Assembly: GCA_005223125.1 (NCBI GenBank)
Contig: NJBH01000036.1
Coordinates: 1 to 38,737 of the forward strand
DNA: 38,737 nt
Source: Promethearchaeota archaeon Loki_b32
GTDB lineage: Archaea; Asgardarchaeota; Lokiarchaeia; Sigyniarchaeales; SOKP01
Direction: 5' to 3'
Part shown: one piece after another, positions 1,408 through 13,595 of the stretch
Layout: each line of letters begins with the position of its first letter
Numbering within the stretch: the first letter of the stretch is position 1
The notes under the pieces: model-generated
What the model saw: only the letters and a program-made list of their open reading frames with translations
What the model was told of the DNA's origin: nothing
Database searches by the model: none
Translations under genes and position numbers: made by a program

Positions 1408-1607
1408 ATGACAGAATTTAAAAGAGTAAAGTGTCCTCAATGTGGCAATGAAAATCCACGTAAGCTTCATGAGGAAAACGACAGGAATAATGTGCTTTAT
1501 TACAGTATAGGTAAAGCTAGTTCAGCCTACCGCTGAAGCAGGGCACTCCTGTTTATGCTAAGAATATGAAATGCGGCGGATGTGGCAATATTTTCAAAAA
1601 GAATTAA
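1408..1607 (+). CDS. small zinc-ribbon protein, gene split by a 29-nt intron
   Basis: The gene is readable only as two exons, 1408-1508 and 1538-1607. Exon 1 begins MTEFKRVKCPQCGNENP and runs to VLYYS; exon 2 gives QGTPVYAKN, then KCGGCGNIFKKN and TAA at 1605-1607. The two parts are in different frames. Removing 1509-1537 (29 nt, 2 modulo 3) joins them as YYS-M-QGTPVY, a 56-residue protein with two CxxC knuckles (CPQC, CGGC) that make one complete zinc ribbon. Without removal, exon 1 reads into TGA at 1534-1536. No homologue could be searched, so the function is unknown; a nucleic-acid or protein-binding zinc ribbon is the likely class. The intron is described separately. Confidence 0.75.
1509..1537 (+). 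other. 29-nt bulge-helix-bulge mRNA intron in the zinc-ribbon gene
   Basis: The segment can be folded as an archaeal splicing-endonuclease substrate. Exon nucleotides CAGT (1503-1506) pair with GCTG (1532-1535), one pair being T-G, as the 4-bp central helix. The 5' bulge is ATA (1507-1509, cut after the second base). The 3' bulge is AAG (1536-1538, cut after the second base). Inside, GGTA (1510-1513) pairs with TACC (1528-1531). An outer GTGC/GCAC pairing (1492-1495 with 1543-1546) is possible across an internal loop. Cutting at these bases gives an ATG codon at the joint and restores the frame. The geometry is seen in sequence; splicing itself is inferred. Confidence 0.72.
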
Positions 1608-3441: not shown

Positions 3442-5127
3442 ATGCCCTGTGCAGGTGAAGAAATTGTAATGATTTGGGATCCCCTTGAACGATTTTTATG
3501 GGGAATTGCTATAACCATAACAATAATGTGCGGAATTTATTTTGTACATATAGGAAGAAAAAGAGAAGTCTTTAAGGAAAGAATTATTATGTTAGGACTG
3601 GCAAGCCTGCCCCTTGGTTTTGCATTCAGTTTACTTTTTACATATTTTCAAGGTTTTCAAGTATGGGGAACCTATCATGTTGATAGAAATATATTTTGTG
3701 GAGATTACGATGATATTGGATCGCTATATAACTTTTATGGGATATTAAGTTACATATCTTTTGGATTAGGAGGTTTATTCTTTGTATTAACCTTTGATAT
3801 AATAAAACGCACGAGATTTCTTCTTACAATCATTGCCACTGTTCCAATAGTATTAGTAATTTTTTTTTTCTCAATTGACGAAATGGAGACGGTGAAATCC
3901 ATTTTTAATGTTTATTTAATACTTGAATTGGTATTCTTTGTTCCACTTGTATTATTTCGTTATACAAAATGGTCCAGTTTTGAGTTTAAAGCCGTATCTT
4001 CATTTTTATTCTTCGGTTTTATATTATTCATGATTTCATTACTCTTTGCTAAGAGTCTTCATAGGAAGCTCGATGTATACCCATTATTTTTAGGCCCGCT
4101 CTTATTAATTGCAGGTTGCTGTATCATGATAATACCAATAATTATTGATCCTAACGTGGTTTCTCACCCCTTAACTTATTGGGTATTTTTTGCAATTTTA
4201 ACTATAACCTTTCTCATTGGAATAACAATTTTTGACATTATCTTATTATCTCACCCAAAGAACCCGTGGTCAGTAAAATGGATAATACTAATAGGTGATT
4301 ATTTGGTAGCCATTTTCTATTTTTCTATTTTATTGATTCTCATAATTAAAAACATACGTTCTGAAATAATCTCCATCAGTGAAGAAAAATTGAAAGAGGA
4401 TGAAGCTTATAAAGCCGATTTTTTAGCAATGTTCACGAGACCGCAACAAGTTAGTTTTTTAGCAAGTATGAGTCATGAATTCAAAACTCCATTAACTTCT
4501 ATAATAGGTTTTACAAGAACGATATTGAAGGGAAGGGTTGGAGAGATAAATGAAGAACAAGAAAACCAACTTAATATTATTCTAAATAGTGCAACTCATT
4601 TAGATGAATTGATTAATCGTGTATTAAACATGGCTAAAATTGAAACAAGTAAATTAACCATAAGAAAAGATAAGTTTAATCTCGTAGAAGAGTTAATAAA
4701 CTTGATAGAAACTTTTAGTGTTGCTGTTAAGGAAAAAGGACTTGACCTTTTTGTGGATGCTCCCGAAAACCTTATAATTTACAATGATAAACAACAGATT
4801 AATCAAATTTTAATAAATCTAATTGGAAATGCAATAAAATTCACTGACAGTGGGATGATTTCCATAAAAATTAAAAGAAAAAAAGAAAATATTGTAATTT
4901 CAGTTAAAGATAGTGGACCAGGAATACAAAAAGAAGATTTAAAAAAATTATTCAAACCGTTTAGTCAAATTCTTGAACCTGGGAAGTTTAAAGAGGGAAG
5001 TGGTCTAGGACTTTATCATTCTAAGAAATTAGCGAATCTACTCGGGGGAGATATAACAGTAAAAAGCAAATTTGGGAAAGGAAGCACTTTCAAATTAGTT
5101 TTAAAAACAGAAGAGGAGGATATATGA
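3442..5127 (+). CDS. membrane histidine kinase
   Basis: A 561-residue sensor kinase. The N-terminal 300 residues hold about eight to nine hydrophobic helices with short loops and no clear extracellular sensor domain, so the signal probably acts in or near the membrane. A HisKA domain follows, with the H box ASMSHEFKTPLTSIIGFT (phospho-acceptor His345). The HATPase domain has the N box LIGNAIKFTDSG, the G1 box KDSGPGI and the G2 box GSGLGLYHSKK. A second ATG at 3469 is an alternative start and would not remove any domain. It is divergent from the response regulator at 3291. Two-component systems in archaea are usually of bacterial origin. Confidence 0.9.
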   Translation: MPCAGEEIVMIWDPLERFLWGIAITITIMCGIYFVHIGRKREVFKERIIMLGLASLPLGFAFSLLFTYFQGFQVWGTYHVDRNIFCGDYDDIGSLYNFYGILSYISFGLGGLFFVLTFDIIKRTRFLLTIIATVPIVLVIFFFSIDEMETVKSIFNVYLILELVFFVPLVLFRYTKWSSFEFKAVSSFLFFGFILFMISLLFAKSLHRKLDVYPLFLGPLLLIAGCCIMIIPIIIDPNVVSHPLTYWVFFAILTITFLIGITIFDIILLSHPKNPWSVKWIILIGDYLVAIFYFSILLILIIKNIRSEIISISEEKLKEDEAYKADFLAMFTRPQQVSFLASMSHEFKTPLTSIIGFTRTILKGRVGEINEEQENQLNIILNSATHLDELINRVLNMAKIETSKLTIRKDKFNLVEELINLIETFSVAVKEKGLDLFVDAPENLIIYNDKQQINQILINLIGNAIKFTDSGMISIKIKRKKENIVISVKDSGPGIQKEDLKKLFKPFSQILEPGKFKEGSGLGLYHSKKLANLLGGDITVKSKFGKGSTFKLVLKTEEEDI

Positions 5128-5151: not shown

Positions 5152-6357
5152 TCAAATTAAAGATAAAACAATCTTATTTTGTGCTATTAGCATATCTCCC
5201 ATAATAAGCTCCATTGCATCTTTAATATCTGGATTACTCTCAGGAATACTGCGTTTTGCATTCACACTTGCCATTAAGACTTCATTTAATCCGCGTAAGA
5301 TCATATCAGGGCTATACCATGGGCGTTGTGAGGCCCACCATTGTTGACAGCTGTGAATTCCGCGATCTAACAAGTTTCTTGCATTATCAAATATTCTTTT
5401 CTTATCCTCATTCATACCATCCCGATATTTTGCTGCTAAATGAATTAAAGTAAGGGCATACATGAAAAATCGGTGTTGTTCAAGGTGAATTTCGTTGTTT
5501 GGATCAAGCCAAAGAGGAAATGGCACATCATGAGCAATATCATATGGCATTGTCGACCAACTGGAGTCTCGTGGTACTTGAGTGAAGCCTTTAGGGAATT
5601 TATCAACTATTTCCGAGACGGTACATAGTTTCACATCGTTCCTATGTGGTAGCGCATCAAACAAGGGTATCAAGAAATCTCTTATCGCATGCTTTACATG
5701 GTGTCCAAATGTTTCTCCATCAAGACCAAGAATCACATACATATCCTGTGAAGTATTCTTATATTTTAACCTACTGGTAAAAGCATCAATGTTGTTAATC
5801 TTATCAAAAGCACAATCAATTGAGGTATAATCATCTCTAAAAAGAACTCTTAATCCATTAGGATGCACGGATATATGGTTTGTAGGAAATTCTGGTAAAA
5901 TATTTGCAATTCCGCTCATAATCATCCAATCAAATCCCTCCTTTTTAACTGTTTTAAACACCTCTTCAGAAACAGCCATTTCTGGGGGAAAAAACCCACG
6001 AGGATTGTAAAGTTTCCCAAAAAAGTGTTCATTTGTTTCATTATTTAGTTGTATCTGACGTTTAATTTCAGGTTCTGGAATTAAAGGAAGTAATGGATGG
6101 AATTTCCCAGACCCTGTAAATTCAATTTGTCCTCTCGAAGCAAGTGTAGTAATAGCTCCTATCAAATCGTCATATCCATAATCATGTAATTGTTCGGTTA
6201 AAGTTCCATTGATGTTTAACGTAATCTTTGCCTCTGAATGATCTCTTAAAGCTTCAATTATAGGCTTGTATGATTCGTTTACGATTTGTTTTATTACAGA
6301 AGGGATTTGAACTGGTGGCTGGTAAATATGAAATAAAAAGGCAAAATAGACTACCAT
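5152..6357 (-). CDS. glycoside hydrolase family 57 enzyme
   Basis: A 401-residue cytosolic GH57 protein, the family of archaeal alpha-amylases, 4-alpha-glucanotransferases and branching enzymes. Conserved region 1 is FHIYQPP (9-15), where the family usually has HxHQP. The nucleophile glutamate is Glu126 in GFFPPEMAVS, and the general-acid aspartate is Asp213 in LGLDGETFGHH. There is no signal peptide, which suggests intracellular glycogen or glucan metabolism. Its length is close to the catalytic core alone, so large C-terminal beta domains are absent. The exact glucan activity cannot be assigned from motifs. Confidence 0.88.
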   Translation of the reverse strand: MVVYFAFLFHIYQPPVQIPSVIKQIVNESYKPIIEALRDHSEAKITLNINGTLTEQLHDYGYDDLIGAITTLASRGQIEFTGSGKFHPLLPLIPEPEIKRQIQLNNETNEHFFGKLYNPRGFFPPEMAVSEEVFKTVKKEGFDWMIMSGIANILPEFPTNHISVHPNGLRVLFRDDYTSIDCAFDKINNIDAFTSRLKYKNTSQDMYVILGLDGETFGHHVKHAIRDFLIPLFDALPHRNDVKLCTVSEIVDKFPKGFTQVPRDSSWSTMPYDIAHDVPFPLWLDPNNEIHLEQHRFFMYALTLIHLAAKYRDGMNEDKKRIFDNARNLLDRGIHSCQQWWASQRPWYSPDMILRGLNEVLMASVNAKRSIPESNPDIKDAMELIMGDMLIAQNKIVLSLI

Positions 6358-8532: not shown

Positions 8533-9294
8533 TTAATTTTTTAGGAAAAAATCTGCTCGTGAAATTCCTGCCTTTTTTAACGCGATTAATATTAAGTACC
8601 CGATAATAGCCCCAGGAATACTACTTAGAGCCCATGAGATCCAAAACCCCCATAGGAAAATAGGATCCCATGTTGTTGTAGCATATATAATTGGATTTAC
8701 TAAATAAGCAATTGTCCCCCCAATAAAAACTGTACCAAATGGTTCAACCAGGGCAGATAATTCTACATATTTTGATTTTTTTTTCCATAATATCAACGAG
8801 ACAAGACCTACAATAAATGCTCCTGATAAGTGTCCATGAAAAGCGTGAAAAGAACCAAATCCTAATGAAAATCTATAAATTGCAATTCCTAAACCAGTTA
8901 GTAGAGCGAAAGGAAGTCCTATTAATACGCCTGTTATTCCATTTATCAAATGTGCAAATGGATATATTTTTGCGCTTAAAATTTGAATATATATGAAAGG
9001 ATTAAAAGGACTTAAAAAAACGGCTCCAATTGCAATGAATATAGCTGCAATTGCAACTTTTTTAGTAATTGGGCTTTGAATTATTGTTCTTTCTTTTTCT
9101 TCATTGTTAGGTTTCTGTTCACTCAGTTTTCTCACATTGTCTAAAGCAAATTTTCTTATATTAGTAATTTTTTTTACTATAAATATTTTAAAATTAGAAA
9201 TTCTTTTAGGAAAATCTAAGAAATTAAAGAGTTTTAATCTATTAAAGTATTTAAAATCATATAAAATTTGTAAGAGTTTTTCTATTTTTTCCAA
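8533..9294 (-). CDS. ECF transporter S component, ThiW-like
   Basis: After a charged 75-residue N-terminal stretch, about five membrane helices follow. The segment NPFIYIQILSAKIYPFAHLI, then GITGVLIGLPFALL and FHGHLSGAFIVG, matches the pattern I associate with ThiW, a predicted thiazole/thiamine-precursor binding subunit of energy-coupling-factor transporters. No EcfT or EcfA genes are in the window, so the module would have to be shared or encoded elsewhere. The N-terminal extension is unusual. A GTG at 9135 would shorten it and leave more room for a promoter to the divergent FAH gene at 9311, so the start is uncertain. Confidence 0.7.
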   Translation of the reverse strand: MEKIEKLLQILYDFKYFNRLKLFNFLDFPKRISNFKIFIVKKITNIRKFALDNVRKLSEQKPNNEEKERTIIQSPITKKVAIAAIFIAIGAVFLSPFNPFIYIQILSAKIYPFAHLINGITGVLIGLPFALLTGLGIAIYRFSLGFGSFHAFHGHLSGAFIVGLVSLILWKKKSKYVELSALVEPFGTVFIGGTIAYLVNPIIYATTTWDPIFLWGFWISWALSSIPGAIIGYLILIALKKAGISRADFFLKN

Positions 9295-9310
9295 AAACGG
9301 TAATTATTTA

Positions 9311-9985
9311 ATGAAGATTGGGAATCAAACTATTAATCCAAGTAAGATTATCTGCATCGGTACAAATTACATGGATCATATCGAAGAGACAGGTTTAGAC
9401 GTTCCAAAAGAACCAGTTCTATTTCCAAAAACATTAAATTGTTTGATTTCAAATAATGACCCCATAATTTATCCCAAATTTTTATATAACCAACGTAAAT
9501 ATAATAGAGTAGATTATGAAGTAGAATTAGCATTTATTATAAAAGATAGATGTAAGTATGTTCCAAAAGAGGATGTATACAATCACATACTTGGATACAC
9601 GGTATTTAATGATGTAACAGCAAGAAAAATGCAAGCTAAAGATATTGTATCTAAATTACCATGGTTTCGATCAAAATCCTTCGATACATTTGGTCCAATT
9701 GGTCCGAGGATTGTTGATATTGATGAAATCAAAGATCCACATAATTTGAATATCAATTTAAAGTTAAATGGAGAAATTAAGCAATTATCTAATACAAAAC
9801 ATTTATTGTTTAAGATACCAGAACTTTTAGAATATATATCGACTATTTTAACTTTAGAACCCGGAGATATTATAGCTACTGGGACACCAAGTGGGATTGG
9901 ACCTATGCAACCAGGTGATCTTATTGAAGCAACAATAGAAAAAATTGGAACTCTTGTAAATAATGTAGTTATGGAAGGTGAATAA
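9311..9985 (+). CDS. fumarylacetoacetate hydrolase (FAH) family protein, copy 1
   Basis: A 224-residue single-domain FAH-family enzyme, the fold of hydrolases and isomerases acting on C-C bonds of acyl-pyruvates. Seen are CIGTNYMDHIEE (metal-site entry), VDYEVELAFII with the metal-binding glutamates, and the C-terminal GDIIATGTPSGIGP signature. I start it at ATG 9311 because MKIGNQTI aligns with the family N-terminus. The open frame extends upstream to 9104 only by chance over the divergent gene. The stop TAA (9983-9985) is followed in the same frame by a second copy of the gene. The substrate is unknown; relatives include acylpyruvases and oxaloacetate decarboxylases. Confidence 0.87.
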   Translation: MKIGNQTINPSKIICIGTNYMDHIEETGLDVPKEPVLFPKTLNCLISNNDPIIYPKFLYNQRKYNRVDYEVELAFIIKDRCKYVPKEDVYNHILGYTVFNDVTARKMQAKDIVSKLPWFRSKSFDTFGPIGPRIVDIDEIKDPHNLNINLKLNGEIKQLSNTKHLLFKIPELLEYISTILTLEPGDIIATGTPSGIGPMQPGDLIEATIEKIGTLVNNVVMEGE

Positions 9986-9988
9986 AAA

Positions 9989-10666
9989 ATAAATATTAAA
10001 ATTGGAGATAAAACTATTTATCCAACAAAAATAATTTGTTTAGGGCGAAATTATATAGATCATGCAAAGGAGATGAAAGCCCAGGTTCCCAAAAATCCAG
10101 TATTTTTCGTGAAAACTGTAAATACATTGGTGGCTGATGGGGATCCTATAATCTACCCGAAAATACTCTACAATAATCAAGATTATAATCAAGTAGATCA
10201 TGAAGTAGAATTAGCATTTATTATTTCTCAGAACTGTAAAAATATTCAAGCCGAACATGGTTATGAATATGTTGAAGGATATACTATTTTTCTTGATATT
10301 ACAGCAAGGAAAATGCAGATTAGCGATAGAAATATAAATTTGCCATGGTATAGGAGTAAAAATTTCGATTTTTTTGGTCCTATTGGTCCTAGAATTGTAA
10401 ATTTTAACGAGATTGAAGATCCTCATAATTTAAACATTCAATTAAAAATAAATGGGGAAATTCGTCAACAATCAAACACAAAACATATGATTTTTAAAAT
10501 TCCAGAAATCTTAGAGTATCTCTCCAAGTTTATCACATTAAGTCCTGGGGATATTGTTGCAACAGGTACACCTAGTGGTGTAGGGCCTATTCAACCAGAA
10601 GATATTATTGAAGCCTCTATAGAAAAAATAGGAACAATTACTCATAAGGTAATTTTAGAAGAATAG
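9989..10666 (+). CDS. FAH family protein, copy 2, without a standard start codon
   Basis: A tandem paralogue of the preceding gene. Homology starts at 9995 with IKIGDKTIYPTKIICLGRNY, aligned residue by residue with MKIGNQTINPSKIICIGTNY of copy 1. It then shares VDHEVELAFII and GDIVATGTPSGVGP. In this frame there is no ATG, GTG or TTG between the stop of copy 1 and ATG 10073, and using 10073 would delete the conserved LGRNYIDHAKE segment. Candidate starts are ATA 9989, 8 nt after a GGTG Shine-Dalgarno-like sequence, or ATT 9995. Alternatives are readthrough of the TAA of copy 1, a truncated start at 10073, or decay. The body of the frame is intact. Confidence 0.75.
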   Translation: MNIKIGDKTIYPTKIICLGRNYIDHAKEMKAQVPKNPVFFVKTVNTLVADGDPIIYPKILYNNQDYNQVDHEVELAFIISQNCKNIQAEHGYEYVEGYTIFLDITARKMQISDRNINLPWYRSKNFDFFGPIGPRIVNFNEIEDPHNLNIQLKINGEIRQQSNTKHMIFKIPEILEYLSKFITLSPGDIVATGTPSGVGPIQPEDIIEASIEKIGTITHKVILEE

Positions 10667-12337: not shown

Positions 12338-12860
12338 GTGAGTGAAAAAGGAAAAGTGGTCGTAAAAGCTCTTGTAACAGGGGGCAGTGCCAGTGGTGGA
12401 CCCCCGATTGGCCCTGCTGTTGGTCCTACAGGCATAAACGAAAATCGTCTCGATTTTTGATGCATACATTAAAGACGTAGTCGATGAGATCAACAAGCAG
12501 ACAACAGTTTTCAGAGGCCTAACAGTACCAGTCAGAATTGAATGTGATCCAGAAACAAAGCAATTCGAAATTTTTATTGAAACACCTTCTACAGCATCAT
12601 TACTATTAAAAGAAGTTGGAGTTGAAAAAGGGAGTTCAGTATGTTCAGATGAGAAAATTGGTAATTTAACACTTGACCAAGTTCAAAATGTAGTTGAAAC
12701 AAAACGAGAAAAATTCTTAGATAAAACATATAAAACTGCTTTAAAAACTGTTTTAGGAACAGCTCTATCCGTAGGTTTGACAGTTGAAGGAGAAGATCCA
12801 AGAGTAATTCAAGAAAGAATTAATAATGGAGATTATGATGAAAAAATAAGGGGTGACTAG
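12338..12860 (+). CDS. rpl11: ribosomal protein L11 (uL11), gene split by a 28-nt intron
   Basis: Exon 1 (12338-12437) starts with GTG and encodes MSEKGKVVVKALVTGG, then GPPIGPAVGPTGI. Exon 2 (12466-12860) gives KDVVDEINKQT, then FRGLTVPVRIECDPETKQFE. The exons are in different frames. Removing 12438-12465 joins them as GPTGIN-I-KDVVDEIN, exactly the spacing of archaeal L11 (GPLGVN-x-xxVVxEIN). The spliced product is 164 aa, normal for archaeal L11. L11 forms the base of the ribosomal stalk with L10 and L12, encoded just downstream. Without splicing the frame ends at TGA 12458-12460 after about 40 residues, which would lose an essential protein. Confidence 0.92.
12438..12465 (+). other. 28-nt bulge-helix-bulge intron in the L11 gene
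   Basis: Exon bases GCAT (12432-12435) pair with intron bases ATGC (12460-12463) as the 4-bp central helix. The 5' bulge is AAA (12436-12438) and the 3' bulge is ATA (12464-12466), each cut after its second base. Directly inside the 5' bulge is a 9-bp hairpin, CGAAAATCG with CGATTTTTG and a TCT loop, one pair being G-T. The predicted joint reads GGC ATA AAC ATT AAA, restoring the family sequence. The outer exon helix is weak. Geometry and frame restoration are independent and agree on the same two cut sites. Confidence 0.88.
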
Positions 12861-12866
12861 TATAAC

Positions 12867-13595
12867 TTGAAAGTGGATGATAAATTATTAAAGAAGTCGT
12901 TAAATGCTGCAATTAATTTTTCTGTTATTAAAAAAGAAGGTTTCAAGGACAAAGTAAGAAAATTCAATGAATCAATAGAGCTTATAATAAATATTAAAGA
13001 TGTCAATCTAAAAGATCCAAAAAATAGAATAGATAAAGAGATCATTTTATCGAATGACGTAATTGCAAATGATAAACCTAATATTTGTATAATTGCTTCA
13101 GATGAAATTTTGCTCGAAGCGAAAAAACTTGGTGTAGATACTCTTGATTCTAATGGTTTAGTCAATTTAAATAATGAAGAGAAAAAATTCAAGAAAAAAT
13201 TTGCTAAAAAATATGATTATTTTGTTGTAGAAGATAAAATGATGAGAGATGTTGCTCGCTACTTAGCAAGATTTCTTGGACCTGTTGGGAAAATGCCAAA
13301 ACCCTTTCCTACGGGATATGGAATTATTTCCAATCCAAATGATTTAAAAGTTGCTTATGAACGATATAAAAGGGTAATTCGAATTCAAATGAAAAAACAA
13401 CCTATCATATTTGTTAAAATTGGTAAAAAATCTATGGATCAAGAAAAATTATATGATAACATGAAAACGGTTATAAATTTTATCGCTGATCAGATGCCAC
13501 ATAAGTTTAATAATTTTAAATCTATGTATCTTAAATCAACTATGGGAAAACCCGTAAAAGTAACAGAGGAATTCCTAAAAAGTATTGAGGTGTAA
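12867..13595 (+). CDS. rpl1: ribosomal protein L1 (uL1)
   Basis: A 242-residue L1 protein of the ribosomal L1 stalk. The archaeal signature GPVGKMPKPFPTGYG is at about residues 139-153, and the N-terminal DVNLKDPKNRIDKEI segment is typical. The start is TTG at 12867, placed 10 nt after GGGGTGA (12850-12856), a good Shine-Dalgarno sequence that overlaps the end of the L11 gene. L1 in many organisms represses its own operon by binding its mRNA; no obvious L1-binding mimic was identified here. Confidence 0.95.
   Translation: MKVDDKLLKKSLNAAINFSVIKKEGFKDKVRKFNESIELIINIKDVNLKDPKNRIDKEIILSNDVIANDKPNICIIASDEILLEAKKLGVDTLDSNGLVNLNNEEKKFKKKFAKKYDYFVVEDKMMRDVARYLARFLGPVGKMPKPFPTGYGIISNPNDLKVAYERYKRVIRIQMKKQPIIFVKIGKKSMDQEKLYDNMKTVINFIADQMPHKFNNFKSMYLKSTMGKPVKVTEEFLKSIEV
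13587..13592 (+). promoter_or_regulatory. Shine-Dalgarno sequence deciding the L10 start
   Basis: GAGGTG, inside the last codons of the L1 gene, lies 7 nt before TTG 13600. It favours that TTG over the upstream in-frame TTG at 13585, which would lie before it and overlap L1. Confidence 0.7.

Follow-up and report, generated by a model that had tools for sequence, protein, structure and literature searches.

The gene of the essential ribosomal protein L11 (rpl11) of Promethearchaeota archaeon Loki_b32 is interrupted by a 28-nt insert, which we read, with a probability of roughly 93%, as an archaeal tRNA-type bulge-helix-bulge (BHB) intron in the L11 pre-mRNA that would be cut and rejoined as proposed in the initial annotation. 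The gene lies in the window, i.e. the whole stretch of 38,737 nt that was analyzed (contig NJBH01000036.1), which stems from a genome of 4.13 Mb in 71 contigs (95.5% complete, 4.6% contamination). The insert is part of a set of rapidly changing, putative short mRNA introns in one Lokiarchaeal family, which occupy four positions in L11 and also a zinc-ribbon protein gene. The comparative evidence makes an L11 BHB mRNA intron close to certain at the level of sequence; that splicing of the L11 transcripts takes place, and which enzymes perform it, is what we infer from this evidence.

The L11 frame runs to GPTGIN (N codon 12437-12439), hits a TGA 20 nt inside the insert if left unspliced, and resumes as KDVVDEIN from 12468 in another frame, just as the initial annotation had described the break. 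The GCAT/ATGC helix, the 3-nt bulges on both sides and the 9-bp inner hairpin on which it had relied are all present, with one G-U pair among the 9 bp of the hairpin stem. Cutting behind the second base of each bulge was reproduced as well: it removes 28 nt, gives GIN-I-KDVV and joins, in the spelling of the window, GGCATAA to ACATTAAAGAC at the predicted junction (Table 1). The protein of 164 aa that results from this removal reaches 189.6 bits against the archaeal L11 model (cut-off 162), the comparison that had been suggested as a check. Its match to L11_N covers positions 1-58 with 70.7 bits, compared with 27.7 bits per half in the broken gene. The next gene, coding for ribosomal protein L1, scored 188 bits against the archaeal L1 model, which is under the cut-off of 203. 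A self-splicing intron was rejected: the catalytic core of group I and group II introns is far longer than the 28 nt of the insert, and no Rfam family reached its gathering score anywhere in the window.

Table 1. Features of the L11 locus and of the zinc-ribbon gene in the window; introns and cuts are predicted
Feature	Position	Strand	Remarks
Zinc-ribbon protein gene (small), 5' exon	1408..1508	+	
Putative 29-nt BHB intron in the zinc-ribbon gene	1509..1537	+	second predicted intron of the window
Zinc-ribbon protein gene, 3' exon	1538..1607	+	
L11 (rpl11), 5' exon	12338..12437	+	GTG start; Pfam L11_N 1-26 matches 12362-12439
Central 4-bp helix, exonic 5' strand	12432..12435	+	GCAT
5' bulge	12436..12438	+	AA|A, predicted cut at the bar
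Putative 28-nt BHB intron, L11 site D	12438..12465	+	between nucleotides 100 and 101 of the reading frame
Inner hairpin	12439..12459	+	9-bp stem 12439-12447/12451-12459, 3-nt loop
Central helix, intronic 3' strand	12460..12463	+	ATGC
3' bulge	12464..12466	+	AT|A, predicted cut at the bar
L11, 3' exon	12466..12860	+	stop TAG; L11_N 27-58 at 12468-12566; Ribosomal_L11 at 12582-12785
Ribosomal protein L1, next gene	12867..13595	+	TTG start as listed; open frame

The initial annotation had further proposed to look for the same break in related genomes. The L11 N-domain was searched in 79 genomes of the order, and loci were taken for 27 relatives with a split, short or stop-containing match. The family of the window comprises 65 genomes, 56 of which have an L11_N match; 28 of these are uninterrupted and 28, including the window, are broken. 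In 27 of the 28 broken genomes inserts could be delimited, 36 in number and 28-37 nt long, at four L11 positions, which correspond to nucleotides 50 (site A, 12 genomes), 71 (site B, 7 genomes), 83 (site C, 2 genomes) and 100 (site D, that of the window, 15 genomes) of the reading frame. In G053 the contig begins within L11 near site B and the gene could not be judged. A single site is occupied as D alone in 9 genomes, A alone in 5, B alone in 3 and C alone in 2, and several sites together as A+D in 4 genomes, A+B in 2, B+D in 1 and A+B+D in 1 (G034), whose three inserts are the maximum in one L11 gene. Without splicing, all 36 inserts cause a frameshift or an in-frame stop.

At sites B and C the in-frame stop follows exactly 4 nt after the 5' cut in all inserts (7/7 and 2/2; loci L041, L042, L044-L048, L055 and L057), and these stops look as if they formed a barrier to reading of the unspliced mRNA. 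The hairpin stretch TTTCGATT is common to the site-A inserts of L042, L045 and L055 and the site-D inserts of L053 and L055.

Nine of the 65 family genomes lack an L11_N match. Two of the nine, G045 and G058, contain part of the C-terminal domain, which in G058 lies at a contig end. When the search was extended to the phylum (227 genomes), 151 of the 162 genomes outside the family gave an L11 match, with best E-values of 5.4e-18 or better except for G149, G162 and G163, and no stops were found among the stronger matches listed there. Of the weaker ones, G162 and G163 showed open frames (171 and 176 aa) that include the C-terminal domain; a search for this domain in G149 gave no match.

A broken frame in an assembly of 71 contigs might also reflect a pseudogene or a sequencing or assembly error, a reading that the recurrence renders barely credible. 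The insert sits at the same position in 15 genomes, of which G038 is assembled as one contig (3,343,605 bases), so that the assembly error named in the initial annotation as a possible refutation found no support; moreover, the inserts are structured and covary. The downstream frame is conserved, the C-terminal exon being open and conserved in 27 of the 28 rows of the alignment and running off the contig in the 28th. A second intact L11, the other refutation that had been named, was sought and not found in the 95.5% complete genome, where the C-terminal domain gave one match and the N-terminal domain two half matches.

The geometry of the predicted BHB was then evaluated over all inserts. Since a first boundary script gave a bonus to the BHB, the placement was repeated with the protein score alone, and in every one of the 36 family inserts the protein-tied boundaries included that of the BHB. 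The central helix is complete (4/4) in 32 of the 36, compared with 4.2 expected from dinucleotide shuffles of the insert bodies. By site, observed and expected numbers were 12/12 and 1.7 for A, 3/7 and 0.1 for B, 2/2 and 0.2 for C, and 15/15 and 2.2 for D, with one site-D insert (G049) being uninformative in the shuffle test. The four inserts lacking a perfect central helix all belong to site B and have 3/4 pairs. The window insert has 4/4, but at this locus alone a 4-bp helix at a protein-allowed boundary arises in 22.5% of the shuffles, so that the motif of a single locus proves little and would not convince. The L11 insert of the window lacks the outer helix between the exons that marks the strict hBHBh' form, and has 1 outer pair; there are 0 outer pairs at site A, 2-6 at site B, 7 at site C and 0-2 at site D. 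Because it has almost no outer helix, the predicted motif of site D is a relaxed BHB.

In folding predictions with short flanks, the BHB core of the window is the exact optimum (-10.2 kcal/mol). The mean pair probability of its central helix is 0.98 with short flanks vs 0.21 with ±40 nt, a context in which the predicted fold of the transcript favors a competing structure, as does a 66-nt fold. A pair probability of at least 0.5 was obtained with short flanks and with ±40 nt, respectively, for 3 and 9 of the 12 inserts at site A, 2 and 5 of 7 at site B, 1 and 1 of 2 at site C, and 14 and 10 of 15 at site D; for the zinc-ribbon inserts the numbers are 6 and 6 of 12.

Covariation was analyzed at site A in 10 of the 12 inserts, two near duplicates being omitted, and at site D in the 9 of 15 inserts that are 28 nt long. 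At site A the first central pair is U-A in six and A-U in four inserts. The covariation score is 0.444 vs a shuffled mean of 0.172, with 12 both-side cells and 0 of 500 shuffles as high. On its 5' side this first pair uses the wobble base of a glycine codon (GGT or GGA), and a silent exon change is therefore matched by a change in the intron. The signal at site D is weaker, with 96.3% of cells paired, three both-side pairs and 34 of 500 shuffles as high. Exon bases of the predicted helix, which would pair with the insert, are likewise fixed in carriers, while most non-carriers differ there: GGCATAA is found in 14 of the 14 site-D carriers counted vs 6 of 40 non-carriers (Fisher 1e-8, kinship ignored), GGGAG in 12 of 12 site-A carriers vs 2 of 42 (Fisher 3e-10, kinship ignored) and CCGCC in 7 of 7 site-B carriers vs 10 of 47. 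As the sequences are related, both the shuffle counts and the Fisher values overstate independence. G053 and G022, the latter with a contig that ends within a possible site-A insert, are omitted from the exon-base counts and from the site counts on the tree described below.

These data also bear on translational bypassing, in which the ribosome would hop over the 28 nt and the RNA would stay uncut, as is reportedly the case for phage T4 gene 60 and for the 'byps' of yeast mitochondria. Short hairpin inserts that have to be skipped suit such a process, and in 26 of the 36 inserts the top-scoring boundaries include one that falls between codons. In bypassing, however, take-off and landing codons match, while here they are identical in 1 of 36 inserts and agree in their first two bases in 9 of 36 (AAC/TAC in the window). 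In addition, 10 of 36 inserts have no between-codon boundary at the best protein score, and bypassing predicts neither the BHB geometry with 3-nt bulges nor the covariation of silent exon positions with the insert. We regard it as very improbable and retain the BHB intron as the preferred reading.

As candidates for removal of the predicted intron, the genome has two EndA genes (alpha and beta) and one for RtcB. EndA alpha has kept the Tyr/His/Lys triad and in addition has the K-P-R of the crenarchaeal loop; its K60-P61-R62 aligns without gaps to K44-P45-R46 of 3p1z_B, the best PDB match, and the K-P-R residues are those named for the A. pernix EndA in the cited part of PMC12397907. EndA beta, aligned to 1a79, has Ser where His stands, as in a structural subunit. 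The crenarchaeal loop has been tied to broad specificity in (alpha-beta)2 EndA (cited passages of PMC6379350 and PMC12397907); the loop is the same here, while the host is an Asgard archaeon. Judged from these sequences, the genome would thus possess a two-subunit EndA of predicted broad specificity together with RtcB, which fits a BHB intron. According to the proposed mechanism, the insert and its exon flanks would fold as a BHB in the transcript, EndA alpha and beta, with their relaxed specificity, would cut both 3-nt bulges behind their second base, RtcB would join the L11 exons, and ribosomes would then translate a single continuous L11 frame. The interpretation of the initial annotation as a BHB mRNA intron is supported by the cut sites, the single copy, the covariation, the recurrence in the family and the presence of EndA and RtcB.

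Some of the BHB predictions are weak, which might speak for RNA-level excision by a nuclease and ligase other than EndA and RtcB, or for an L11 that stays unjoined and works as two pieces. The cut positions, however, fit the rules of EndA, and an EndA with the broad-specificity loop as well as RtcB are present. No plus-strand ORF of at least 60 aa with an ATG, GTG or TTG start is listed for the 3' exon, so that its first part is without a usual start codon. Both variants together appear highly unlikely, and cleavage by EndA with joining by RtcB is the reading that we follow.

When 25 Asgard genomes were searched, the loop lysine and the triad were present in 22 of the 22 alpha subunits found, 18 of which belong to genomes outside the family of the window; 3 genomes gave a weaker match only. 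K-P-K/R occurs in 19 of these 22 subunits (L226-L247), and the loop is general among those examined. The crenarchaeal-type loop was considered as the cause for the restriction to one family, and failed as such, as it is also found outside the family. Its presence across the Asgard alpha subunits would permit L11 introns and does not explain why they are restricted to one family.

The genome has 21 tRNA matches, of which 11 unusual ones were examined; according to ARAGORN, 6 of these carry an insert of 16-30 nt. Short inserts are seen in the tRNA loci L133, L137, L139, L141, L143, L144 and L145; by eye, several are off the canonical anticodon position, and L144 apparently has two.

Apart from L11, the window contains a second putative BHB intron in a gene for a small zinc-ribbon protein (Table 1). 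This insert is located between YYS and MQG and recurs at the same site in ten genomes, that of the window included. The protein score alone leaves a single boundary in 9 of the 10, which is the BHB boundary, and nine of the 10 have a complete (4/4) central helix. Covariation of the helices is strong over the 10 inserts: 98.2% of helix positions are paired, with five both-side pairs and 0 of 500 shuffles as high. Two further genomes have a 30-nt insert elsewhere in the zinc-ribbon gene. The ribosomal-protein cluster stretches of 20 genomes gave one case each in two more genes: uS8 of G023 has a 29-nt insert (L155, reverse strand, 5792-5820) between HAYI and GEFERYD, and a small membrane-protein gene in the cluster of G056 has a 31-nt insert (L162, reverse strand, 4597-4627). 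Both form a 4/4 BHB at a protein-allowed boundary. The uS8 gene in L154 (G024) is uninterrupted, and a relative's version of the small membrane protein gave no Pfam match.

A wider scan took in 21 family genomes with a sample of 1.62 Mb in total, in which 1,650 of 2,692 six-frame ORFs of at least 80 aa had a comparable homologue in another of the sampled genomes. No convincing gene was found in it beyond L11, the zinc-ribbon gene, uS8 and the small membrane-protein gene. The scan missed the window's own zinc-ribbon insert and the site-C insert of G024; it was therefore not fully sensitive, and the number of putative mRNA introns per genome is a lower bound. Several breaks were rejected as introns: that of uL24 in G035 is a run of N in the assembly, that of a 413-aa gene in G014 and G034 was taken to represent two adjacent proteins, and breaks supported by few queries were dismissed by eye (antisense frames, gene starts, poor alignments). 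In the 65 family genomes, the TruB_N part of cbf5 was in one open frame without a stop in 64 of 64 matching genomes, and L14 gave a stop-free single match in 61 of 61, one of which begins at a contig end.

The distribution of the L11 inserts was mapped on a tree of the L11 3' exon (60 sequences, four outgroups; 58 counted), which was obtained with long-branch warnings. On this tree site A needs 10 changes for 12 carriers, site B 6 for 7 and site D 10 for 14. Near relatives differ as well, since G055 has inserts at A and D, G056 at B and D, and G064 none. A single short gene does not suffice to distinguish repeated gain from repeated loss or from recombination between strains. As a tentative model, which we hold at somewhat below even odds, this one family might have active and fast-turning mRNA BHB introns of 28-37 nt that repeatedly enter or leave fixed L11 positions along with their locked exon flanks, through repeated insertion or strain recombination, and that possibly couple the output of ribosomal proteins to the tRNA-splicing capacity.

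Archaeal mRNA introns are known from few genes. In 2009 splicing had been confirmed for cbf5 alone among archaeal pre-mRNAs, with putative introns predicted elsewhere (PMC2738675, in the part cited), and in 2020 cbf5 was still given as the sole other example when a BHB in a 5' UTR was added (PMC7714728, in the part cited); cbf5 was also the example named in the initial annotation. The cbf5 introns occur in Desulfurococcales and Sulfolobales, with lengths of 33, 36 and 39 bp being named, and their BHB is mostly unconventional. Like the predicted L11 introns, they are short, cut between the second and third bulge base, and gained and lost across species. They differ in gene and phylum, and one cbf5 intron was followed in the cited text (PMC2738675), compared with four positions and up to three inserts per gene in L11. 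The BHB in the 5' UTR of Haloferax HVO_1309 is also located in an mRNA and was confirmed as an EndA substrate in vitro; unlike the L11 inserts it lies outside the reading frame and is one case (PMC7714728, same part). Among Asgard archaea, introns in 92-95% of tRNA genes were described for three genomes of Atabeyarchaeia and Freyarchaeia (PMC11291895). These introns are many and often at non-canonical positions, as are some at the tRNA loci of the present genome, but they are tRNA introns, and the cited part of that paper mentions none in protein-coding genes, whereas those of L11 would be in an mRNA. A 2026 review of non-canonical splicing lists tRNA introns only for archaea in the section cited (PMC13149111).

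The initial annotation knew of no intron in L11, and in the full-text literature searched no earlier report was found. The best full-text matches in a mostly open-access library contained none on L11 introns or, more generally, on introns of protein-coding genes in Asgard archaea. Introns of this kind are known; in the literature searched, the L11 gene and the phylum as hosts, the presence of several introns in one gene and their fast turnover are novel. If true, these would to our knowledge be the first archaeal protein-coding genes with multiple introns spliced by the tRNA machinery. Very few protein-coding genes of archaea are known to depend on splicing, and these would add greatly to their number. 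They would also provide, in the archaea closest to eukaryotes, a natural system in which protein-spliced introns can be followed as they are acquired and lost. On the practical side, gene callers and L11 marker sets can misread these genomes, in which L11 looks truncated or in two pieces.

Elsewhere in the window, positions 9104-10666 hold two adjacent, similar ORFs, both with FGPIGPRIV and ATGTPSG. They are probably tandem duplicates, and we take them to belong to a fumarylacetoacetate-hydrolase-like family.
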